Below the pieces are notes generated by a model that was given only the letters and a program-made list of their open reading frames with translations, was not told the origin of the DNA and did not search any database. DNA of 43,082 nt, taken from positions 11,178 through 54,259 of the forward strand of contig PATI01000051.1 in NCBI GenBank assembly GCA_002712335.1, read 5' to 3'. Shown piece by piece: positions 8,943 to 22,797 of the stretch. The DNA comes from Rhodospirillaceae bacterium. GTDB lineage: Bacteria; Pseudomonadota; Alphaproteobacteria; MPNO01; UBA2964. Within the stretch, counting starts at the first letter, position 1; each line of letters starts with the position of its first letter. A program made the translations under genes and the position numbers.

Positions 8943-9737
8943 TCAATCCACATTAATTCTCTTTGATTGCAGCATGATGACCACAATAAAGGCGGAGACA
9001 GATGCAAATAAATGTTTGAGTGTATGCCCACTTACTGTACCGAGAAATAAATCGTATATCCAGTAATCGAGTTTTTCCAGCAATAGCGCGAAAGTGTAAC
9101 ACACCACAATCCAGAATAAATACTTGCCGTTGGTGTAATTCCAACGAGGATAGAATTTACACACTAAGGGTAAGATTAGAATGGGAAAAAATTGGATAAA
9201 ACCGTAAAATCTCAGATCTCCGCTTCCCTGCGCTTCCGTGACAGCCCAATAAATTACACTAACTGCACCCAGTAAAACGCTTAGTGGTAACAACCATTTA
9301 ACCAAGGCAGGTTGCCTGAGGCGGTCGGTGAGGCAGGCAACAAAGAAACCCATGAATGCGATTGTCATTGGTAACCGATCCCAAAATAGGCGTTCATTAT
9401 CAGGAGACCAGTGATAGTAGCCGGAGCCAATGCTAACCATAAAAATACCAATATAAAAAACAACGTAGGGCCATTTATGGATTCCAGATATGAAAAGTTC
9501 ATTTCCTTTTGGACCCAACGTGATCCAAAGGCCCCAAGATCCAATGATGGCGAATGCTATGTTCGATGCGGTATTCCCAAAATTTAAAATGCCAAGGCAG
9601 GTTCTAGTGTCTGCAAATAGGTGAAAATTAGGATCTTGGGGAATAGGATCTATTAATAGCGTTCCAACCAAGCCCAACAAGGATATAAAAAGTAATAATA
9701 AACCTTTTCCGCAACGCATTGAGCCTAGGGGTTTCAT
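8943..9737 (-). CDS. Ceramidase-like CREST-family integral membrane hydrolase
   Basis: A 264-residue protein with about seven hydrophobic segments. It matches the alkaline ceramidase / CREST superfamily of membrane zinc hydrolases. The diagnostic residues are present: Ser105 and His109 in GSGYYHWSPD, Asp120 in FWDRLPMTI, and His238/His242 in GHTLKHLF, the expected zinc ligands and catalytic serine. Known members hydrolyse ceramide-type amides; bacterial homologues are mostly uncharacterised. The start overlaps the EutA stop by ATGA, implying coupled translation. Pairing with EutA and a Rieske oxygenase is unusual. An amidohydrolase acting on a membrane N-acyl lipid is possible but unproven. 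Confidence 0.8.
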   Translation of the reverse strand: MKPLGSMRCGKGLLLLFISLLGLVGTLLIDPIPQDPNFHLFADTRTCLGILNFGNTASNIAFAIIGSWGLWITLGPKGNELFISGIHKWPYVVFYIGIFMVSIGSGYYHWSPDNERLFWDRLPMTIAFMGFFVACLTDRLRQPALVKWLLPLSVLLGAVSVIYWAVTEAQGSGDLRFYGFIQFFPILILPLVCKFYPRWNYTNGKYLFWIVVCYTFALLLEKLDYWIYDLFLGTVSGHTLKHLFASVSAFIVVIMLQSKRINVD

Positions 9738-11275: not shown

Positions 11276-12502
11276 TTAGCCGCCGGCAAATGAGTAGGTT
11301 GTATTCTTATCATAAAACTTATTTTCCATGCGGTTCTTGGTTCCTACTGCTTTAATTGCATCAATGTATGACTCTCTCACATGGGGATCTTCGAGATGAT
11401 ATGGTATGGAGGCACCTCCCGGGTAAGTGACGTCTACCATGCCCGGGTCAACGACATTTTCTCCTGGTATACCAGCCTGTTGTGCTAGGTGGTTATTTGG
11501 TCCATACCATCCCAAAAGTCGCAGCGGTGTCTCGCCTGTAGAAAAATGCTGATGAAACCAATCTCCTTCCATAGGGGCAGCTGAAATCATGCTTATTTCA
11601 TTGTATTCCTGTCTTAGCACGTTGTCTCCTTGTTCATTTTCCCAAGGGGTCGGGCCTATTTCCTGCGGCCAGGTATACGAGTAACCCTTGCCTCCAATAC
11701 ATATGAAAGCTGCAGCTGTTCCAGGTGAATATGCTCTGGAATAACGACCAGCGGGGTGTTCGCTTATGTACTGGTAAAAGACGTTCTCGGCCATCTGTGG
11801 TTCCATGCGACGATAGCCGGGGGTGCGTCGGTTGTCCAAATATAGTTCAGTTGTAAAAACATCGGCCACCACATTTGTACGACAAAGAGCTAGACCACGC
11901 GCTGGATCCGGGCGCAGTCCTTGAGCAGGTTTGAAATTATTTCCTGACGGATCGTATCGCGTTGTAAGATGGATGGATGAGCCAAATATAATGTTTTCAT
12001 CCCTAATTAAATTCAACATGTTCGGAGCAGTTGTACCAGCCAATAGAAGCGCAGGATTAGAGGACGAATTCACAATTCGATGATTAACATTCATGGGTAT
12101 TGTAAATAGGGTTCCTTTACTCCATTCAAATATTTCTGGTTTGTTATGATTTTCTATCCATATTTCTGTTGTGCCCCTACCTTCGAGAACAAGATATATC
12201 TCTTCATAAAGGTGTCGTTCCTCATTTAACGATTCACTTCCGGGGACCTGAACAAGATAACTTCCCCATTTTCCTTCCGTTCCAAACAATTGAATAAAAC
12301 AACCATGCCCTCCCATACGTTCCCAACGGCGCATTGGTAAATTGAAAATATTTGAAATTCCAACTTCTCTTACAATTGGAACTCCCTGTGCTTCCATAAA
12401 ATAGTCGTAGGGGGTCGCCAAGCGAGGCCAGGATGGGGTGCCTGCGTAAAGATCTTTTCCGGGTTCGTGCCAATGCGGATCTCCTGCAACATCATGGGGC
12501 AT
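11276..12502 (-). CDS. Bicupin protein (copy 1), N-terminal metal site retained
   Basis: A 408-residue two-cupin protein. The N-terminal cupin (about 95-180) keeps His and Glu in RHLYEEIYLVLEGRG and His in LFTIPMNVNHRIVN, so it can hold a metal. The C-terminal cupin (about 245-345) has lost its first motif: the segment aligned to AHRHAAGTH of the paralogue at 16187 reads AYSPGTAAA, though WFHQHF remains. It is a distant full-length paralogue of that gene, sharing F-E-W, LFTIP and FHQHF landmarks. Bicupins include aromatic dioxygenases and isomerases, and no specific activity can be assigned. The ATG follows GAGGAA. It is the first gene of the EutA operon and diverges from the SDR gene. Confidence 0.78.
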   Translation of the reverse strand: MPHDVAGDPHWHEPGKDLYAGTPSWPRLATPYDYFMEAQGVPIVREVGISNIFNLPMRRWERMGGHGCFIQLFGTEGKWGSYLVQVPGSESLNEERHLYEEIYLVLEGRGTTEIWIENHNKPEIFEWSKGTLFTIPMNVNHRIVNSSSNPALLLAGTTAPNMLNLIRDENIIFGSSIHLTTRYDPSGNNFKPAQGLRPDPARGLALCRTNVVADVFTTELYLDNRRTPGYRRMEPQMAENVFYQYISEHPAGRYSRAYSPGTAAAFICIGGKGYSYTWPQEIGPTPWENEQGDNVLRQEYNEISMISAAPMEGDWFHQHFSTGETPLRLLGWYGPNNHLAQQAGIPGENVVDPGMVDVTYPGGASIPYHLEDPHVRESYIDAIKAVGTKNRMENKFYDKNTTYSFAGG

Positions 12503-12664
12503 AATTTCCTCTTAATCCAAAATAAACTTTGCTGAGAAACAAAGCCTGAAAATGCTCAAAGGCACAGCGAGTGTCAAGGAAGAGGGGAAATATTACATTT
12601 TATTTCTATATAGAGAAAGAGATGCATAATGAAGCCACAGATAAAAAATTAAAGGAGTCAGGCT

Positions 12665-13447
12665 ATGTTATGGCTGAAAGACAAAGTTGCTCTTGTGACA
12701 GGTGCGGGCGAAGGCATTGGTAAAGCTATCGTTAAACGGTTTTTAGAGGAAGGAGTTTTGGGTGTGGCTGCCTTTGATATTAATCAACAAAGATTAAACG
12801 CCTTGAAAAAATCCTATGGTAATCGAATTTGCACTATATGTGGTGATGTTCAAAATATATCAGACAATAAAAAAGCAGTGGAGCAGGCTATCCGATCGTA
12901 CGGAAAATTAAATGTGTTAGTTGCTAATGCGGGCGTACGAGACGGACGAATACAACTAACCCAGATGAAAGAAAATGAGCTAACGAGCGGTTTTGACGAG
13001 GTTTTTGGAGTAAATGTAAAAGGGTATTTGGTAGCTGCGGCGACCGCACGCCAAGAACTCGCAAAAAATCGCGGTTCCATTATTTTCACACTTTCTACCT
13101 CTTCTTTCTACGTTGGGAGTGGCCCAATTTATACTGCCTCAAAACATGCAGCTCTGGGACTCATGAAATCATTATCATACGAGTTGGCCCCAGATATTCG
13201 AGTTAATGGAGTGGCTCCAAGCGGAACGCCTACGTCTTTTTCAGATGCTTATAACATGGCGGGTTTGGTTGAAGGAAAAGCCAAAATTTCTGGCCTACCG
13301 AACACTAATATTCTCCATCGTCAAACTGAACCAGCCGATCACGCAGGGGCATACGTATTACTCGCGTCTGATCAATCAGCGGTAATGACTGGTTCCGTCA
13401 TTAACAGTGATGCTGGAAGAGGAGTAACTCCTCATTCAACAAGCTAA
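12665..13447 (+). CDS. SDR oxidoreductase, cis-dihydrodiol dehydrogenase (BphB/HcaB)-like
   Basis: A 260-residue short-chain dehydrogenase. The cofactor loop is TGAGEGIG (12-19), with Asp38 ending the second strand, which favours NAD. NAG occurs at 88-90, and the catalytic residues are Ser144, Tyr156 and Lys160 (YTASK). Segments such as FDEVFGVNVKGY and SYELAPDIRVNGV closely resemble cis-2,3-dihydrodiol dehydrogenases of biphenyl and phenylpropionate pathways, which rearomatise products of Rieske dioxygenases. The start has AAAGGAG seven bases upstream. It stands alone on the plus strand and ends five bases from the convergent neighbour. It could act with the Rieske enzymes of the window, which is an inference. 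Confidence 0.87.
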   Translation: MLWLKDKVALVTGAGEGIGKAIVKRFLEEGVLGVAAFDINQQRLNALKKSYGNRICTICGDVQNISDNKKAVEQAIRSYGKLNVLVANAGVRDGRIQLTQMKENELTSGFDEVFGVNVKGYLVAAATARQELAKNRGSIIFTLSTSSFYVGSGPIYTASKHAALGLMKSLSYELAPDIRVNGVAPSGTPTSFSDAYNMAGLVEGKAKISGLPNTNILHRQTEPADHAGAYVLLASDQSAVMTGSVINSDAGRGVTPHSTS

Positions 13448-13452
13448 AATTG

Positions 13453-14820
13453 TTATCCCCAAGGATTTATTGCACCTTTGAGGGCTTCGTATCCTTCAAG
13501 GAACCCCGGACGATCACCTGCGTAAACTTTATCAAAGGTATCTAGAGCATTATCAAGAAAGCTCTTGAGTTTCTGATTTTCCTTATTTGCGTCAAGGTAC
13601 GCGTCACGGATCAGGACAAAATGAATTCTTGGGTCGTACGGCTGCTTGGTTCCACCTACCCACTCATCTCCATCTAGCAAGCGCAGCAACATAGCATCTG
13701 CCGAGCCGAGTGTTTGTTCGTGTATTGCCGGACCGGACATTCGATGCATCACCGAGGTCATGTCTCTGCCATTACCTGTGGTATACCCCATGTCTGTCCA
13801 CACCGTTCTCATATCAATATCTTTTCCAAGGTGTTTGGCGACAATTCCTCCAAAGGCCCGAAGTGGGTCGGAAATATCAGCCATTAAGTCCGTCAGGCGG
13901 TCTCCATCAAGATCTGTTGCGAGAACAATGCAGTCCCGTTTTTCGATCATGTCCCAAACGAGCAAACCATAATTTGTATCTGATATATGTTGTTCTATCC
14001 GACCACCCCAATTTTCCATTCCATCTTTAAAATCGGTTGGAAGAAGGGCAATAATCTTGTCAACTTCGACCTTAAACTCATCGTAAGGATCCACGGCATA
14101 TTTACGTCCCACTTCAAACTTAGTGCCTTGTAGTAGCCAACTGTGCAATCCTGCATTGATCCCGTCCTCTTGGGCCTGCGTAGGTTTTGTGGCTACCCTG
14201 CCGAGGTGACCGGTTTCGTGAACCATCTTTAGGAATAAACGGTTGGCATACGCCAGCTGAATTCCGGGGGTATTCATTTCCGAATGAATATGACCAGTTT
14301 GTGGATCGACGCCAAAGACCTTTTTGTCCTGGGAATAGGGTAAACACGGCATACATCGTACAGCCGTTATTGGGCCATACGGCCGGACATTGCAGTAAAC
14401 GCCGGCTTGTGTCCTTAGGGGCGCATTCCCAGATTTTCCCATGACTACGACTTTACCTCCCTGGCCGTCATTGACGTAAGCGTCTCCTGCTGTTGACCAT
14501 TTAATTGAAATGCATGGCATATTTCCAAACCAGCTGAGAGGATCCAAATTATGATCATGTCGGTATTGCGACCACATGGGTACGGCGTAAAAGGGAAGAC
14601 CCAATATATCTATCGCTGCCATAGTTCCCAAGAGGGCGAATGCATCTGTCATTGAGTGAGCGACTGGTTCCACACTGCCGTCATGATTCCCCCCTTGCCA
14701 GACTACCGCATCGGGGTAACCATTTGGTCGGACATCTGTAGGTTGGTATAAGTCATTGAGGAGGCTAAACAAATTTCCTCCCTCAGCTTCGGTTCGAGCA
14801 ATTTTCATCAGGTCGAGCAT
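13453..14820 (-). CDS. Unrecognised 455-residue protein
   Basis: I cannot assign a family. The reading frame is long and well formed with an AGAGG ribosome site before the ATG. The protein appears soluble: no signal peptide and no membrane segments. Notable features are a His- and Asp-containing N-terminal half (QGGNHDGSVEPVAHS, YRHDHNLDP), a paired-cysteine segment RCMPCLPYSQ around residue 160, a KMVHETGHLGRV stretch near 200, and DLDGDRLTDLMADISDP in the middle. The clustered His, Asp and Cys suggest a metal or cofactor site, but this is speculation. It is the last gene of the TTT-bicupin-DadA-like minus-strand run, 108 bases after the FAD oxidoreductase, so it probably acts on the same imported compound. 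Confidence 0.6.
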   Translation of the reverse strand: MLDLMKIARTEAEGGNLFSLLNDLYQPTDVRPNGYPDAVVWQGGNHDGSVEPVAHSMTDAFALLGTMAAIDILGLPFYAVPMWSQYRHDHNLDPLSWFGNMPCISIKWSTAGDAYVNDGQGGKVVVMGKSGNAPLRTQAGVYCNVRPYGPITAVRCMPCLPYSQDKKVFGVDPQTGHIHSEMNTPGIQLAYANRLFLKMVHETGHLGRVATKPTQAQEDGINAGLHSWLLQGTKFEVGRKYAVDPYDEFKVEVDKIIALLPTDFKDGMENWGGRIEQHISDTNYGLLVWDMIEKRDCIVLATDLDGDRLTDLMADISDPLRAFGGIVAKHLGKDIDMRTVWTDMGYTTGNGRDMTSVMHRMSGPAIHEQTLGSADAMLLRLLDGDEWVGGTKQPYDPRIHFVLIRDAYLDANKENQKLKSFLDNALDTFDKVYAGDRPGFLEGYEALKGAINPWG

Positions 14821-14928
14821 GGGGGCCTCTTTTAGTTATAAAAGTCTGTTAAGGGGCATTTTCAATGCTCCATTAAAATTGGCCTAAACATGCTGACTTG
14901 GAGCCTTCCTGTAAAGGGGCAGTTGTCG

Positions 14929-16173
14929 TTAAATTTTAAATCGGTCTGCACGAAATGGGGATGGGTCAATACTGGGCGTCACACCATGCATTAAATCCGC
15001 TAAAATTATAGCACTGCCAGCAGATGTGGATAGACCATTATGTTGGTGGCCAAAATTAAACCACAGCTCATCGTGCCTACTTCCTTTGTCAATTATCGGA
15101 AGACTGTCGACGAGTGTAGGGCGTCGTCCCATCCAGGCACTATCCTCCAATTCGGCGCCTAATGATAGAGCTTCCCGAGCTGAGTGAATAGAGTTTCTGA
15201 TCTGTTTCTCATCCACCTTCGCGTCCCTACCATTAAGCTCCACTCCGGACGTTATCCTTACCCCCTTTTTTTGGGGAGCCATGACATAGCCCCCATCAAC
15301 GTCGTGTACGACACGTTGTAGGCTTGCCCCTAATCCCGGGTTAAGGTGTATGTGGTAGCCTCTTTCCCAACCCATTGGTATTTTGTAACCCAGTTTCCCG
15401 GCGATTTCAGCTGACCAAGGTCCGGCTGCAATTACAACTTGATTTGCTTCCTGCATATGGTTGTTCTTCATTTCAACCTTCCAACCGTCTGAATAGGACA
15501 AAGTTGTTGCCGCGGCTTGCAATACCTTGCCCCCAAGTTTTTCGAATATCGAAAGGTAAGCATCACACAGCCCTGATGGGCTCGAGACACTGCATGCATC
15601 ATGCAGTAAGACACCATGTTTGAAAATTTGATTGAGTGAGGGTTCAAGATTTCTCAGTTGCTCAGAATTTAAAATGGTGTGACCTACGCCTGTTTTTTTG
15701 AAAACTCTAAGCTCCATGTCATAGGATTTGAAGCTTGCTTCGCTGCGGAATACCTTTAGCCACCCGGTTTTTCTTAATAAACTATCGGCATTTGCTTCCC
15801 GAATGAGATCCAGATGAAGACTGAGTGAGAAAGACTGTAGACTTCGCAGAGCCCGACTACTGTGGTCAAGGTGTGAATCAGTACAATAACTGAGGAATTT
15901 GGTAACCCAGGGAACTGACTTTAAAATAAAACCTATATTATAGTTGAGTGCATTGCTCTTTTTGAGAATGAGCTTTGGAAGTTTTTTGCGAAGCCCGGGA
16001 TTGTTAGAAATTACAACCGAACCATCGGATAATACGCCAGAGTTGCCGTAAGATGTTTCTCTACCAGGTTTTTTCGGGTCGATAATTGTTACACTATTTC
16101 TACGTCTCTGCAGTTCAAGGGCGGTGGTAATACCGACAATGCCACCTCCAATAACAATAATACGTTTTGACAA
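14929..16173 (-). CDS. FAD-dependent oxidoreductase, DadA (D-amino-acid dehydrogenase)-like
   Basis: A 414-residue flavoprotein of the DAO/DadA superfamily. It opens with the FAD-binding Rossmann motif IVIGGGIVG (6-14) and an acidic strand end (IIDPKK). Residues about 235-245 (VVIAAGPWSAEIA) and the C-terminal GHQHNGLSTSAGSA segment complete the FAD site. It would deaminate or dehydrogenate an amino acid or a related secondary amine or hydroxy acid. The start is TTG at 16173, only 13 bases after the bicupin gene; no ATG is suitable. It is part of the TTT-transporter run, suggesting oxidation of the transported substrate. Family call secure, substrate open. Confidence 0.85.
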   Translation of the reverse strand: MSKRIIVIGGGIVGITTALELQRRRNSVTIIDPKKPGRETSYGNSGVLSDGSVVISNNPGLRKKLPKLILKKSNALNYNIGFILKSVPWVTKFLSYCTDSHLDHSSRALRSLQSFSLSLHLDLIREANADSLLRKTGWLKVFRSEASFKSYDMELRVFKKTGVGHTILNSEQLRNLEPSLNQIFKHGVLLHDACSVSSPSGLCDAYLSIFEKLGGKVLQAAATTLSYSDGWKVEMKNNHMQEANQVVIAAGPWSAEIAGKLGYKIPMGWERGYHIHLNPGLGASLQRVVHDVDGGYVMAPQKKGVRITSGVELNGRDAKVDEKQIRNSIHSAREALSLGAELEDSAWMGRRPTLVDSLPIIDKGSRHDELWFNFGHQHNGLSTSAGSAIILADLMHGVTPSIDPSPFRADRFKI

Positions 16174-16186
16174 ATTCTAATAAACC

Positions 16187-17407
16187 TTATATGGCAGGGC
16201 CAATTGACGGAGGCGTCTTGATGGGGCCTTCCAGTTCCTCTTGTGGCAGCGCCATTATGGCAGCCTCATCAAATACATCACCCATATTTGAACTAACCCC
16301 ATTTTCGGCTATTGCTTCCAGCCATTTACGATGAATGCGCGGGTCCTGGTCTACATATTCCACCTGACGTCCCCCTTCTTGAATGGAGGTGGCCCCCTTG
16401 CCCTCAGCACTCTTTCGTCTTAAGGCAATAAATGGATATCGACGGCTTCCCATACTGCATGCAAGATAGCGTGCGGGTTGATCACAGGTATTAAAATGCT
16501 GGTGAAACATCCAAAAAGGTGGGGTGTACATGAAACCATGTTCCCAGGGAAATTCCTTGAATGCCTCATCACCCTCATACCACAGAAGTGTGTAACCTGT
16601 CCCGCTTACCGCGTGGACGTGAGTTCCAGCTGCGTGTCTATGTGCCTTTTTGTAACGACCCATTGGTATTTCGGAGGAATGGGCATGCATTGTGCTGTCA
16701 GCTAGGATGAAAGAAACATTTAGAGACCCTTTTCCACGAGAGTCCATGGCGTAGAGTTTAAAATTTGTGAGATCATTAACGAAATTGGTTTCCCAAAGAT
16801 TAGCCTCAGCGACGTTGTCTCCTCGGTTGACCACTACATGATCTCCTTCGCCGTCAAAGTGCCTAGTGTCTCCCAGTCGCTCTGGGAATTCGAAATCATT
16901 ACCAAATACAAATTGCTCATTGTGAAAAAGGTTTAAGACCAACGGAGCATCATTAGTGCATGAGAGCCGTGCATTCTCTTGACCAGATCCATTAAAAATC
17001 TGATAGCTACAGTTTAACGGTATTGTAAAGAGGGCCTTTGGACCCCACTCGAAGGTTCGAGTTTCACCATCAGGGTTGGTAACAGTAGTTGATCCATATC
17101 CAGAGAGCACATAGAAAAATGCTTCGTAAAGGTGTTTGATAGGTGCTGACTTTTTGCTAGGAGCAATTTCAATTACGTAATTGGCCATGAAATCACCGCG
17201 ACCATGCGTGTGTGCGAAACAACCCCTAGCATCCCACCTGTCCCAAATACCTGTCTCAAGTTCGAGTAGGTTATGTCCAAAGTCAAGATGCACGGGTATA
17301 CCCTCGCCGTCTGACCAATTCACGTAAGGATCAACAAGGAACTTTTTACTTATATCAATTTCGGTAGTTGAATTATTCTTCGTATTTTTTTCGTCAGGCA
17401 TGCGCAT
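16187..17407 (-). CDS. Bicupin protein (copy 2), C-terminal metal site retained
   Basis: A 406-residue two-cupin protein, a distant paralogue of the gene at 11276. In the N-terminal cupin the motif Glu is replaced (HLYEAFFYVLSG) and the second-motif His is Tyr (IPLNCSYQIFN). The C-terminal cupin keeps GRYKKAHRHAAGTHVH and WMFHQHFN, a His-rich metal site. The two copies therefore retain opposite metal centres. An ATG at 17401 has the better ribosome-site spacing (AGGGG then six bases) and may be the real start. It lies 55 bases after tctB and 13 bases before the DadA-like gene. It is probably a metal-dependent oxygenase or isomerase in the same pathway; the reaction is unknown. Confidence 0.78.
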   Translation of the reverse strand: MRMPDEKNTKNNSTTEIDISKKFLVDPYVNWSDGEGIPVHLDFGHNLLELETGIWDRWDARGCFAHTHGRGDFMANYVIEIAPSKKSAPIKHLYEAFFYVLSGYGSTTVTNPDGETRTFEWGPKALFTIPLNCSYQIFNGSGQENARLSCTNDAPLVLNLFHNEQFVFGNDFEFPERLGDTRHFDGEGDHVVVNRGDNVAEANLWETNFVNDLTNFKLYAMDSRGKGSLNVSFILADSTMHAHSSEIPMGRYKKAHRHAAGTHVHAVSGTGYTLLWYEGDEAFKEFPWEHGFMYTPPFWMFHQHFNTCDQPARYLACSMGSRRYPFIALRRKSAEGKGATSIQEGGRQVEYVDQDPRIHRKWLEAIAENGVSSNMGDVFDEAAIMALPQEELEGPIKTPPSIGPAI

Positions 17408-17462: not shown

Positions 17463-17951
17463 CTAGATCAAGCCTGCCCATTCTAGCAGTAGTCCCGGTG
17501 GGAAGGGAAGATGCAGAAGGTGCCCAAATATATACCAAGTAGCAAAGCCGGTCCCGCTTGGTAATAAAATTGTCATTACCAATGTTTCCTTATGGCGGAG
17601 CATATAAGCGAGAACCATTAACGGTATCGCTATATAAAAACCAATTAACCATAGCAAAACAGCAAAGCCATACATCCAGCCGAATACCTCAAGTGCACGA
17701 CGTTTGCCAACTTTTGATGCTTCTTCATCAGTGAAGTCAATATCCACGCCAGTTTGATCTGTTTCCGATTTGGACGGTGGTAGAATTTCCCGAAAAAGCT
17801 GATAGGTGAGCAGAACCAATGCTATAATACCAATAGTCCATGGGTACAACTTTGCTTCTAAAGGCATATCAGAAGACGAAACAACTACATAGGCGAACAG
17901 ACCGATAAAAGCTAATGTAAGCGCTGATCTGGGTTGAAATCGTAAGCCCAT
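17463..17951 (-). CDS. tctB: TctB-type small membrane subunit of tripartite tricarboxylate transporter
   Basis: A 162-residue, four-helix TctB protein starting at ATG 17951 (MGLRFQPRSALTLAFIG). A longer frame to 18017 would overlap tctA and is unlikely. Hydrophobic stretches lie near residues 12-28, 42-58, and two between about 100 and 155, with a charged loop between (TDEEASKVGKRR). It starts one base after the tctA stop, so translation is coupled. TctB is the poorly conserved helper of TctA in sodium-coupled uptake of carboxylates presented by TctC. Confidence 0.88.
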   Translation of the reverse strand: MGLRFQPRSALTLAFIGLFAYVVVSSSDMPLEAKLYPWTIGIIALVLLTYQLFREILPPSKSETDQTGVDIDFTDEEASKVGKRRALEVFGWMYGFAVLLWLIGFYIAIPLMVLAYMLRHKETLVMTILLPSGTGFATWYIFGHLLHLPFPPGLLLEWAGLI

Positions 17952-17952
17952 A

Positions 17953-19449
17953 TTAAGATTCCGTTTCCTGTGCCCTAAGTTTTGAATTTCGATCCTGAAA
18001 CATTGGGTACATGACACATATTAATAAAATAATAAAAATAATTATTACCCCCGGCCTTAACAAAAAATCGGCTCCGAAGAGTTGTACGGATGTCCACATA
18101 TGCCGTTCTGCGATTGGGCCTAAAACCAAACCGAGTAAAAGGGGTGGTCTCGGCCAACCAGCAGCCCTCATAAAGTAGCCAATCGTCCCAAAAGCCAACA
18201 TGATCAGCACATCTTCAAAACGACTAGACGCTGCGAAGCTACCGATTACGGCCATCGCTAATATTATTGGTATCATTAATGATGGCCGTAATTTGGTTGC
18301 CATTGCTAGCTGCCTTGTAAATGCAAGACATAAAATTGAGGTAATTATTGTCCCGATAATTAACAGCCAGATCATTGAAAAAGTGAGGTGTAAATCCTTG
18401 GTAAGCATATCTCGGCCGGGGGTTACCCCAACAATTATCAAACCTCCAAAAATCAATGCCAGAGTACTAGAGCCTGGAATACCAAAGGCCAGTGTAGGGA
18501 TTAAAGATCCTCCCTCTTTGGCATTTGTTGCAGCGTCAACAGCTATGACACCTCTTACATCACCCTTACCAAATGTCTCTCGGGCACCAGGGCAGGTTTG
18601 TTTTGCACTGCCATATGCAAACCAATCAGCGACGGCTGAACCTAGGCCAGGGATAATGCCAACCCAAACACCTATGAGACTGCTCCGAATAACTAGCCAA
18701 TAGTGAATAAACGCGTCTTTGACACCTTGCTTGCGGCCTTTGCCTAGATCCCCTAGAGGCATATCTGAGATACCTGTTCCCTTCACCGCCATGTATATCA
18801 GCTCTGGAATAGCGAAAAGTCCAATTGTAACGGGAACTAATTTAAATCCATCAATAAGGAATATCTGATCAAAAGTAAAACGGTGGAGACCGGTAATCAC
18901 ATGGACGCCTGCCATGGAAATAACGAGTCCAATGCCACCGGCAATGATTCCTTTTACCGGAGCTTTGCCACTAAGAGCTCCTACCATTGCAATTCCAACC
19001 ATTACCAGCATGAAGAATTCCGGAGGACCTAATAAAAGTACGAGTGGTCTAAGAACTGGAATTGCTATCAGCAATACCATAGCGCCTATAATGCCACCAA
19101 TAGCCGAAGAGGTGAAAGCGGCTGCAAGTGCACGAGCTGCCTCACCATTTTTCGCCATTGGGTATCCGTCCATAATTGTTGCTTGCGAACCTCCACCCCC
19201 CGGAACGGAAAATAAAATTGATGTAATAGAATTCGCGGTATTACTAACCGCCCAGACGCTCATGATTAGACAAATGGCTTCGAACTGATTTAGGACAAAA
19301 GCGACGGGAAGGAGCAGTGCTATGGCAGTTTTGCTGCCAATGCCCGGCATTGCGACTAAAGTGGAACTGATGATAATGCCGACCATCATCAGAAGAAAAG
19401 CTTTCCACTGAATTATACCAACCAAGCCGGCTATTGCAGCATCAATCAT
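17953..19449 (-). CDS. tctA: TctA-type large membrane subunit of tripartite tricarboxylate transporter
   Basis: A 498-residue polytopic permease with about eleven to twelve hydrophobic segments. It matches the TctA family in length and motifs: an early PGIGSKTAIALLLP segment (about 34-47), the mirrored GIIPGLGSAVADW (about 261-273), and KEGGSLIPTLAFGIPGS with its small-residue-rich re-entrant loop. TctA forms the translocation path of TTT transporters. There is little ribosome-site signal upstream. It follows tctC after a 62-base gap holding a perfect hairpin and is followed one base later by tctB. It may serve all three TctC proteins in the window. Confidence 0.95.
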   Translation of the reverse strand: MIDAAIAGLVGIIQWKAFLLMMVGIIISSTLVAMPGIGSKTAIALLLPVAFVLNQFEAICLIMSVWAVSNTANSITSILFSVPGGGGSQATIMDGYPMAKNGEAARALAAAFTSSAIGGIIGAMVLLIAIPVLRPLVLLLGPPEFFMLVMVGIAMVGALSGKAPVKGIIAGGIGLVISMAGVHVITGLHRFTFDQIFLIDGFKLVPVTIGLFAIPELIYMAVKGTGISDMPLGDLGKGRKQGVKDAFIHYWLVIRSSLIGVWVGIIPGLGSAVADWFAYGSAKQTCPGARETFGKGDVRGVIAVDAATNAKEGGSLIPTLAFGIPGSSTLALIFGGLIIVGVTPGRDMLTKDLHLTFSMIWLLIIGTIITSILCLAFTRQLAMATKLRPSLMIPIILAMAVIGSFAASSRFEDVLIMLAFGTIGYFMRAAGWPRPPLLLGLVLGPIAERHMWTSVQLFGADFLLRPGVIIIFIILLICVMYPMFQDRNSKLRAQETES

Positions 19450-19511: not shown

Positions 19512-20747
19512 CTATTTACACTTAATGTACTTTGCTTCACCACCAGCACCAGGAAATTTGAATTTACAGGTCATACCTACTTTTAACTTCTTACGTTTGA
19601 CCTTCTCTCCCTTAATCATAACTTTGGTGCGTTTACCTGAGACTTTAACCTTTATTTCATTTCCTTTGTGAACGAAATAAATGCGTTTGCCCTTTTTCTT
19701 GATCTTGGTTATCTGAGTGGTGTGCTTTACATATTTCTTCTTTGCACCTGCTTTGTAGAGCGCGATAACCTTATCCGAGGCCCCTAAAATACTAGCATTA
19801 ATTTTTTCCATTAATGCAGGGGCGGTCCAAGCGATATTTCTCTTGGCTCTTTTTGCTTCTTTAAGAAGATCTTTGTCACTCAACGCTGCTTTAAATGCAG
19901 AACGAAGGATTTTTAGACGATCTGCGGGTACGCCACTAGTCGTAAAAAACGGTCTTCCTGCCGCTAAAGGTGCTCCGAGAAGAGCAGCAAGAGCCTTACC
20001 CTGTTCAGATAATAATTCACCCATATGTGGAACTTTTAAGGCAGGGTGTGGTGCCCCATTATAAAGAATAGGTATCAAGCCTAATTCCTTGATAGCCTTT
20101 CTTGTACTTTCATAGCTGTTAGCTGTTCCATGTACGTCGCCACGCTCGATAGCGAGAAAACGATTTTGTCCACCACTAAATCCGGAAATTATTTTTACAT
20201 TAAACCCATCTAGTTTTAACAACGCTGGGTATTGATATGACCCTGCACCCGGTCCGGTTGCGGCAAAACGTATTGTTTTTTTTGAGTTCTTTAACTGCTG
20301 ATAAGTTTGAACGGGTTGATTCTTACCCATTACAATTAGAAATGTTGATGACGCAGCACTACCTAAGGCACTCAGCTTTTTGATGTCATATTTCACACCA
20401 ACTGCCTTTGTCCGCTGAGATAATGCAAGTTCTCTGGTGAGAATGGCTACTTCCGTTCCGTCTTTCTTTGCACGGTTGGCCATGTAATTAGCTGCAACAA
20501 TTCCACCTGCGCCGGGCATATTAATAACAATCATCTTTGGATTGCCCGCGATATATTTAGGCATATGCCTAGCTAGCAAACGCCCGTAAAAATCGTATCC
20601 GCCTCCAGGAGCTGAGCGGACTATCATTTTAATTTTTTTACCTTTGTAAAATCCGTCAGCATTTGCTGGTTGTGCGTTTATACCGCTCCACGCAGCTATT
20701 CCTGCTAAAAGACTTCCTGCCATCACTGACATTGAAAATTTCTTCAT
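19512..20747 (-). CDS. tctC: TctC/Bug-type carboxylate-binding protein with extra C-terminal basic domain
   Basis: A 411-residue periplasmic binding protein whose first 340 residues form a standard TctC: signal peptide 1-30 (cleavage after QPANA), FYKGKKIKMIV (33-43), APGGGYD (46-52) and NMPGAGG (76-82). Residues about 341-411 are an extra Lys-rich, beta-patterned domain with repeated short hydrophobic strands and two cysteines, Cys394 in GMTCKF and Cys410 in YIKCK, which may form a disulphide. TctC proteins normally end near residue 325, so this is a C-terminal fusion. The start has GGGAGG at good spacing. It is the first gene of tctC-tctA-tctB. The domain's role, such as ligand, metal or anionic-surface binding, is unknown. 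Confidence 0.9.
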   Translation of the reverse strand: MKKFSMSVMAGSLLAGIAAWSGINAQPANADGFYKGKKIKMIVRSAPGGGYDFYGRLLARHMPKYIAGNPKMIVINMPGAGGIVAANYMANRAKKDGTEVAILTRELALSQRTKAVGVKYDIKKLSALGSAASSTFLIVMGKNQPVQTYQQLKNSKKTIRFAATGPGAGSYQYPALLKLDGFNVKIISGFSGGQNRFLAIERGDVHGTANSYESTRKAIKELGLIPILYNGAPHPALKVPHMGELLSEQGKALAALLGAPLAAGRPFFTTSGVPADRLKILRSAFKAALSDKDLLKEAKRAKRNIAWTAPALMEKINASILGASDKVIALYKAGAKKKYVKHTTQITKIKKKGKRIYFVHKGNEIKVKVSGKRTKVMIKGEKVKRKKLKVGMTCKFKFPGAGGEAKYIKCK

Positions 20748-22068: not shown

Positions 22069-22797
22069 ATGGAAGAATTATTTTCAGTTATTCCTCGTGC
22101 CCGGTTGGGATTTATTATTCCCTCGTCAAACAGAATGGTTGAACCACAACTACAAGAATACTGTCCAAAAGATGTGATTCCCCATTTCAACAGAATTGGA
22201 ATGACCAACCGACACAGGGCTCCCCTGGAAGACCTTTTGCCTAGAATTCTTTTAGCAGCGGAACTCCTTGGCGACTCCAAGTGCGATGTTACTGTTTTGC
22301 AATGCACAGGCACCTCTATGTCCGGCGGAATTGAAAAGGAGAAGGAAGTCATATCTGCAATTGAGCGGGTTACCGGCAAGCCGGCTGCGTCTACGGCTTC
22401 CTCCCTAATGGATGCCTTCGATGCATTAGGTGTTAAGCGACTAGTGTTCATTTCGGAAACACTGCAAGAAGGCCATGATAAAAAGATGGATTTCCTTAAA
22501 GAGGCTGGCTTGGAGATTGTCTCTGATAAGGCGATGGGACTGGCAGGAAGTGATGTTTATTGTAGTACTCCATCCTCATATTGGTATGAAAATGTAAAGG
22601 CGCTACGCAATGACCAAGCTGAAGCATATTTCGTAAGTTGTGCAAATATACACAGTATCAATATTATTGAAGATCTCGAAGATGTATTAGATCGGCCAGT
22701 GATTACAAGTAACCAGTCGGCGTTGTGGTCAGCACTTAGAATCGCCGGAGTAAAGGATGATATTTCTTCCTTGGGGAGACTATTTCAGTGCAGGTGA
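22069..22797 (+). CDS. Maleate cis-trans isomerase / Asp-Glu racemase family protein
   Basis: A 242-residue protein of the maleate isomerase and arylmalonate decarboxylase branch. The two catalytic cysteines are Cys79 in VLQCTGTSMSGG and Cys191 in FVSCANIHS, with the family's VITSNQSALWSALR segment at 211-224. Both cysteines fit isomerase or racemase chemistry rather than single-cysteine decarboxylation. The ATG follows the amidohydrolase stop with no spacer (TGA-ATG). The protein ends six bases from the convergent NMT1-like gene. In N-heteroaromatic pathways this enzyme turns maleate into fumarate, but the actual substrate here is unknown. Confidence 0.85.
   Translation: MEELFSVIPRARLGFIIPSSNRMVEPQLQEYCPKDVIPHFNRIGMTNRHRAPLEDLLPRILLAAELLGDSKCDVTVLQCTGTSMSGGIEKEKEVISAIERVTGKPAASTASSLMDAFDALGVKRLVFISETLQEGHDKKMDFLKEAGLEIVSDKAMGLAGSDVYCSTPSSYWYENVKALRNDQAEAYFVSCANIHSINIIEDLEDVLDRPVITSNQSALWSALRIAGVKDDISSLGRLFQCR

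Follow-up and report, generated by a model that had tools for sequence, protein, structure and literature searches.

The window analysed here comprises 43,082 nucleotides of a Rhodospirillaceae bacterium (assembly GCA_002712335.1, contig PATI01000051.1, positions 11,178 to 54,259 of the forward strand), in which two genes for bicupin proteins are predicted on the minus strand, designated P1 (11276..12502; 408 amino acids) and P2 (16187..17407; 406 amino acids), together with a gene for a EutA-like ASKHA ATPase directly downstream of P1 (9734..11257, minus strand; PF06277, E 1.6e-121). Both bicupin reading frames, and every motif quoted for them in an earlier note on this DNA (the original prediction), were recovered, and the homology of the two proteins extends over almost their entire length (BLASTP, residues 28-396 of P1 against 24-379 of P2; 26% identity, E 4e-38). 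The original prediction explained their opposite metal-ligand patterns by subfunctionalisation of a two-centre ancestor, or by a heteromer. The reading to which we incline, with reserve, is that P1 and P2 are distant paralogues, that P2 has a metal centre in its C-terminal barrel (C-barrel) only, that the C-barrel centre of P1 was replaced once, and that P1 is partnered with the EutA-like ATPase.

In the N-terminal barrel (N-barrel) of P1, motif 1 (ERHLYEE, residues 95-101; 12200..12220, minus strand) and motif 2 (NVNHRIVN; 12068..12091, minus strand), both placed by the family alignment and a HMMER alignment, provide Glu95, His97, Glu101 and, at the fourth ligand position, His141. These residues face His57/His59/Glu63/His106 of auxin-binding protein 1 in the HMMER alignment, which we take to be the metal ligands of that protein; the N-site proposed for P1 is kept, but with Glu95 in place of the first canonical His, and the ligands do not form the standard cupin set. 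In the C-barrel of P1, motif 1 is replaced (AYSPGTAAA, residues 257-265; 11708..11734, minus strand): Tyr258 and Pro260, in a Tyr258-x-Pro260-Gly261 sequence, stand for two His, as had been noted, and His317 and His319 of motif 2 are retained (FHQHF; 11543..11557, minus strand; family alignment). The latter two probably correspond to a pair in the N-barrel of gentisate dioxygenase, where His160 serves as a ligand and His162 belongs to the outer shell (PMC4019311).

In P2, the N-barrel site is absent. Its motif 1 (HLYEAFF, residues 92-98; 17114..17134, minus strand; family alignment) and motif 2 (NCSYQIF; 16994..17014, minus strand; Tyr135 at the fourth ligand position) present Ile/His/Ala/Tyr at the ligand positions; three positions are changed, as the proposed loss would have it, yet His92 and Glu95 of the HLYE segment are conserved. 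The C-barrel of P2 has an intact 3-His site (His256/His258/His302), and its motif 1 (AHRHAAGTH; 16619..16645, minus strand) aligns with AHRHTGNVI of gentisate dioxygenase 3bu7; motif 2 is FHQHF (16493..16507, minus strand; family alignment). The opposite ligand patterns of P1 and P2 are real, as seen in motifs and alignments alike. Pfam Cupin_2 matches the N-barrel of both proteins, and a structure model of P1 matches bicupin structures over residues 18-369. The AlphaFold model of P2 is poor (predicted local distance difference test score, pLDDT, 55) and unusable, so that the sites of P2 and its status as a bicupin are taken from alignment and homology. Profile searches of PDB sequences gave weak matches only (best E 0.0041 and 0.00099).

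The states of the two sites across the family were read from three homologue sets, made of the best 120 of 1397, 3531 and 5906 matches and hence not whole families; for the sets of 1397 and 5906 matches, only candidates sharing most words were scored. The P1 and P2 family alignments each comprise the best 120 homologues and the query (121 rows). In the P1 family, Glu occupies the first N-position in 119 rows and Asp in two, the third position has Glu (85 rows) or Lys (36 rows), and the C-site is the majority state, with Tyr/Pro as the minority. In the P2 family, the C-barrel carries His-His-His in 121/121 rows, and the N-barrel has mostly Val/Ile, Ala/Ser/Gly and Tyr at three ligand positions, the fourth N-position being Tyr in all 121 rows; the N-site is absent throughout this sample. 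The opposite patterns are not a matter of chance, since the residues that stand in for the ligands are fixed within their respective families. One P2 orthologue (L038, in the draft genome G008) has an in-frame stop, either a sequencing error or a real break.

A larger pool of 139 P1-type rows was assembled from database proteins and genome loci, with some near-copies among them. Both sites (N-barrel Glu/Asp-His-x-His, C-barrel His-His-His) are present in 94 rows; 34 rows have a Tyr-x-Pro C-site, eight rows, representing a paralogue P1', no longer have the N-site but do have the C-site, and three are single-residue deviants. Counted by C-site alone, 104 of the 139 rows are His-His-His, 34 Tyr-Pro-His and one His-Arg-His. 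Among divergent relatives (113 single-length proteins; seven long proteins were handled separately), the C-site is present in 113/113, and the N-pattern is Gln-His-Glu-Tyr in 105/113. Up to seven paralogues of P1/P2 are found per genome. The C-site is present in 57 of 68 genome paralogues in a first alignment, from which bicupins of less than 300 amino acids were omitted, and all 11 exceptions are P1 orthologues; in a second alignment it is present in 37/37. The N-site is absent in the single-length P2-side paralogues examined. A search of a phylum sample of 398 genomes with the P1 profile gave, among the matches listed, a single one, in the nearest genome (G001).

Two trees were derived, from 32 representatives and from 51 rows, with the ligand columns removed and without an outgroup. 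Both show a single change of the C-site, at the base of the P1 clade, and this change is a loss, since the deepest branch separates two sets of proteins that each include carriers of the C-site. For the N-site, a minimum of three changes is required on the 32-row tree and of five on the 51-row tree, on which the both-site halves of three double-bicupin proteins group on the P2 side. A two-centre common ancestor of P1 and P2 is therefore possible, and the ancestor may have been of this kind, with repeated gain of the N-site as the alternative on unrooted trees. For P1 itself, the nearest relatives still carry both centres, so that the P1 ancestor had two centres and lost the C-site late; the P2 line, as far as the sequences indicate, was probably without an N-site long before. 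The original prediction is thus borne out in the two-centre ancestry of P1 (94 of 139 rows) and not in a reciprocal event between P1 and P2; ancestors already lacking one site are found for the P2 family, and for P1 the ancestors had both.

The C-barrel of P1 is a remodelled pocket that has been retained: its site was replaced once by a fixed Tyr-x-Pro-Gly, and no decay of the pseudogene kind is seen. Pro250, Arg256, Tyr258, Pro260 and Gly261 are invariant in the clade without a C-site (34/34 rows, of which 20 are less than 90% alike), and His97 and His141 of the N-barrel are likewise retained in 34/34. The ratio of C-barrel to N-barrel divergence is 0.90 in this clade, compared with 0.89 +/- 0.04 in subsamples of proteins with the C-site. 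The ratio of non-synonymous to synonymous substitution (dN/dS) of P1 is 0.016-0.033 in the 5/21 pairs with usable dS, the remaining pairs being mostly saturated. P1 is, furthermore, less alike than P1' in 21/21 matched genome pairs, as is the EutA of P1 compared with the EutA of P1' in 15/15 (the pairs are not independent in either comparison), i.e. the fastest-changing of the modules compared is the one without a C-site, in the bicupin and EutA genes alike. In genome pairs with both proteins, identity to the orthologues of G012/G013 is 58-63% for P1, compared with 76-81% for P2.

The EutA-like protein scores 406.9 bits against PF06277 (cut-off 27) and stays below the NCBIfam EutA equivalog cut-offs (best 353.5 against 598). 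The segments VDIGSST, DIGGGT and SGGVS, presumably the phosphate-1, phosphate-2 and adenosine motifs of ASKHA proteins, were found by pattern search in the G001 orthologue and by eye in the window protein. The EutA-like gene directly follows P1 in 11/11 testable relatives; in G011, the contig ends inside P1. Since P2 lies within 5 kb of P1 in only 7/10 relatives, the constant neighbour of P1 is the EutA-like gene, and not P2. In an order sample of 27 genomes, 32 of 51 matches to PF06277 (fragments included) have a bicupin gene on the same strand within 400 bases, a limit measured from profile ends that the EutA of G020 missed by 25 bases. Class and phylum searches scored the best three or four candidates per genome, and their counts hold among the matches listed. 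For the class sample of 385 genomes, 31 EutA places are listed, 30 of them with loci: 23 adjoin a bicupin gene (20 on the same strand, three on the opposite one) and five a UbiD-like decarboxylase gene. Bicupins were found in 12 and EutA in 11 of the 385 genomes, all 11 being among the 12 (hypergeometric 2e-20). The distances of bicupins and of EutA proteins are correlated with r 0.93 over 27 non-repeated pairs (0/5000 permutations). An r of 0.96 over 44 pairs was set aside, as these contained repeats, and so was a tally of 47 bicupin, eight UbiD and eight without either among 63 EutA loci, many of which had been fetched via bicupins or repeated one gene.

The UbiD-like decarboxylase, of about 441 amino acids, adjoins a further EutA-like type in window relatives at L126, L129, L133, L135, L146, L147, L150, L154 and L212; its identity was taken from Pfam for two proteins (L146, L154) and from similarity to one of them for the remainder. 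A match to EutB, with a positive E. coli control, was absent in 26/27 order genomes and in all 11 of good quality, which applies to relatives of the window, and present in 1/27. Canonical EutA was seen in scanned loci of the phylum sample, with EutB and EutH at L158 and with EutB at L162, and the genes linked to bicupins or UbiD are separate from canonical EutA on a EutA tree, whose several long branches make the fine structure unsure. In the literature searched, the pairing of a bicupin with a EutA-like protein is not described, and nothing was found that joins EutA with UbiD or a EutA factor with a cupin. The 'EutA' named in an ectoine review (PMC5924519) is a different protein, a hydroxyectoine racemase with no relation to this one.

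P1 and P2 are at most 5 kb apart in seven of the ten relatives with both orthologues. They are more than 1 Mb apart on a single contig, either way round, in G003; in G012 they lie on different contigs, 22 kb or more from the ends, and in G013 also on different contigs, with P1 near a contig end; G010 and G011 have P1 and no close P2 (best 51% and 50%). Among 72,556 plasmid records, four (rhizobial plasmids) encode a P1-family protein and the same four a P2-family protein, 21-23 kb apart; the P1-family gene adjoins a EutA-like gene in 4/4 records, and in the two records read a separate EutA-like gene stands beside the P2-family gene. The P1-type protein of a Phyllobacterium plasmid retains both sites. 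P1-type and P2-type proteins thus occur together even where the former keeps its C-site, and may share a pathway. The bicupin-EutA pair of this plasmid is immediately followed by genes for a nickel/cobalt transporter and NikR (L157:11745-13347), which hints at nickel or cobalt as the metal.

Four double-bicupin proteins (P0243, P0244, P0246 and P0247) have a common layout and were counted as genuine. In P0243, P0244 and P0246, the first half has a Glu-His-Glu-His N-site and the second half is without an N-site. P0241, P0242 and P0245 were not accepted as fusions; their linkers are dissimilar, and they are perhaps neighbouring genes run together. Tandem bicupin genes ahead of EutA were observed at L177, L181 and L182. 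Teams of two bicupins are plausible in this family, since double-bicupin proteins and tandem genes occur; neither P1 nor P2 has a close relative among the double-bicupin halves, and evidence for such teamwork in the window's own pair is poor.

Of the explanations considered besides the one that we favour, reciprocal subfunctionalisation, in which a two-centre gene was duplicated, each copy lost the opposite centre and the labour was divided, is the least probable. The opposite single centres of P1 and P2 and the two centres of the wider P1 family are what it would lead one to expect, and the both-site halves on the P2 side admit a two-centre common ancestor; the N-site, however, is missing family-wide in P2 and in the P2-side paralogues, the P1 loss is one later change nested in a subclade, the unrooted data point to different dates for the two losses, and P1 and P2 are distant members (26% identity) of a family with up to seven paralogues per genome. 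That P1 and P2 form a heteromer, with two active centres on different chains, is quite unlikely. Their proximity in most relatives, the joint occurrence of both families on all four plasmids holding either, the tandem genes before EutA and the three proteins joining halves with and without an N-site argue for it; against it stand the separation in G003 and G012, the lack of a close P2 in G010 and G011, the much faster divergence of P1, the separate EutA-like neighbours of P1- and P2-type genes on the two plasmids read, and the distance of the double-bicupin halves from both proteins.

A decaying or purely structural P1 without a catalytic role is very unlikely: the missing C-site, the fast divergence, and a degraded N-site and a frameshift in one orthologue each fit such a view, but the low dN/dS in the usable pairs, the fixation of the replacement residues and of His97 and His141, and the EutA neighbour retained in every testable relative do not. 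It is also conceivable, although unlikely, that the EutA-like protein and the bicupin would constitute a single ATP-dependent enzyme (phosphorylation of the substrate, then decarboxylation or oxygenation) and not an enzyme with its reactivase, by analogy with acetone carboxylase, an ATP-dependent enzyme with an ASKHA subunit. Tight pairing, co-divergence and a decarboxylase, UbiD, as the alternative partner are consistent with this idea; the protein, however, scores as EutA, and its Pfam matches, listed up to E 0.1, include no family of the acetone-carboxylase type.

Several observations also weigh against the reading that we favour. For the closest relative of the window, dS is saturated, and the usable dN/dS pairs of P1 exclude it. 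The P1 orthologue of G004 (L005) has Asn95 and Ala101, i.e. the N-site may be dispensable in places, and that of G005 (L012), a draft genome, is broken by a frameshift, real or due to sequencing error, into two overlapping frames. Proteins with the N-site are seen to either side of the deepest branch, with a minimum of five changes of that site, and the unrooted tree is compatible with the N-site being ancestral to both families or not. No EutA-like gene is adjacent to P2 in the window, and the EutA pairing is also seen in P2-family and N-minus paralogues, hence does not require the P1-specific state. Two of the 30 class loci are listed with neither a bicupin nor a UbiD neighbour, and in G244, a genome of the same class in the phylum sample, EutA is beside EutB and there is no bicupin match. 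Related rows and genomes, finally, inflate the counts, the permutations and the hypergeometric value.

Between P1 and P2, a protein of 455 amino acids (13453..14820, minus strand), conserved there in the genus and without a Pfam, NCBIfam or PDB-sequence match, and a DAO-type flavoprotein (14929..16173, minus strand) are encoded. Beside P2, in relatives too, are two reading frames (17463..19449, minus strand) that are, to judge by their position, putatively TctB- and TctA-like, and the P2 cluster also includes a TctC-like receptor (19512..20747, minus strand; PF03401, 21.7 bits against a family cut-off of 27). A database protein of 695 amino acids (P0087) is named a TctC receptor joined to a cupin, a possible fusion of importer receptor and bicupin. 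A ceramidase-like membrane protein (8943-9737; PF05875, E 3.5e-09) is encoded by a gene that has the EutA-like gene on one side and a Rieske oxygenase gene on the other, and that stays with P1 in several relatives; in the same neighbourhood, an arylmalonate-decarboxylase-like protein (22069-22797; PF17645, E 2.1e-21) follows an amidohydrolase.

Among known systems, OxdC has about 14% identity; both of its metal centres are occupied, and we know of no EutA partner for it. EutA, the reactivating factor of ethanolamine ammonia-lyase, shares PF06277 and the ASKHA motifs with the window protein; canonical EutA genes lie by EutB/EutH, whereas the branch of the window is apart on the tree and lies by bicupins or UbiD. 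For 5-aminosalicylate 1,2-dioxygenase (NF049978), P1 scored 16.7 and P2 28.6 bits against a curated cut-off of 650. Gentisate and salicylate dioxygenases (3bu7 and 2phd) have iron in the N-terminal barrel, as described in PMC4019311. The family studied here differs in having the 3-His site in the C-barrel, and identity is about 11%; the 3-His N-barrel of gentisate dioxygenase is found neither in P1, with its Glu-His-Glu-His, nor in P2. Bicupins with metal in the N-barrel only, in the C-barrel only, or in both are described in PMC2684688, where degeneration of one site is suggested. P1 and P2 thus resemble single-centre bicupins (pirin, fungal quercetinase, KduI, homogentisate dioxygenase) in having metal, as predicted, in one barrel; unlike in those, the N-only and C-only forms are paralogues in one genome, and one loss is recent enough that two-centre sisters survive. 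The loss of one site in bicupins is already known; unusual here are N-only and C-only paralogues within one genome family whose close kin have both centres, and of wider interest is the pairing with EutA.

In the explanation that we favour, the P1/P2 family would be a large one of the gentisate-dioxygenase/oxalate-decarboxylase fold, with a 3-His site in the C-barrel as the common working centre. The P2 line has no N-barrel site and would work through the C-centre alone; P1 comes from a two-centre branch (N-barrel Glu-His-Glu/Lys-His, C-barrel His-His-His). In its small clade the C-centre was replaced, so that the N-centre alone would still be able to hold a metal in the usual way. Binding of metal at the remaining sites of P1 and P2 is predicted from their sequences, and the enzymes would be oxygenases or decarboxylases. 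The most likely role of the EutA-like ATPase would be ATP-driven (re)activation of its partner enzyme, or exchange of its metal or cofactor, with the bicupin-EutA units serving catabolic clusters that TctABC-type importers would supply. P1 and P2 are more probably engaged in different steps, or on different substrates, than in one complex. A more tentative proposal, on balance doubtful, is that this EutA branch left vitamin B12 to become a dedicated ATP-driven reactivase or metal/cofactor loader for bicupin oxygenases or decarboxylases and, in one offshoot, for UbiD decarboxylases. In the P1 clade, on this view, the C-terminal centre was remodelled and the EutA partner diverged faster, a joint rebuilding of enzyme and reactivase with the N-terminal Glu-His-Glu-His centre as its focus.

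With N-only and C-only paralogues in one genome family, and with two-centre proteins as close kin, the role of each centre can be tested in natural variants. The gene pair, furthermore, ties an ATPase family assigned to the repair of B12 enzymes to enzymes not known to use B12. If this link is functional, cupin and UbiD enzymes would be added to those reactivated with ATP, and the annotation 'EutA' would mislead in genomes that lack EutBC.

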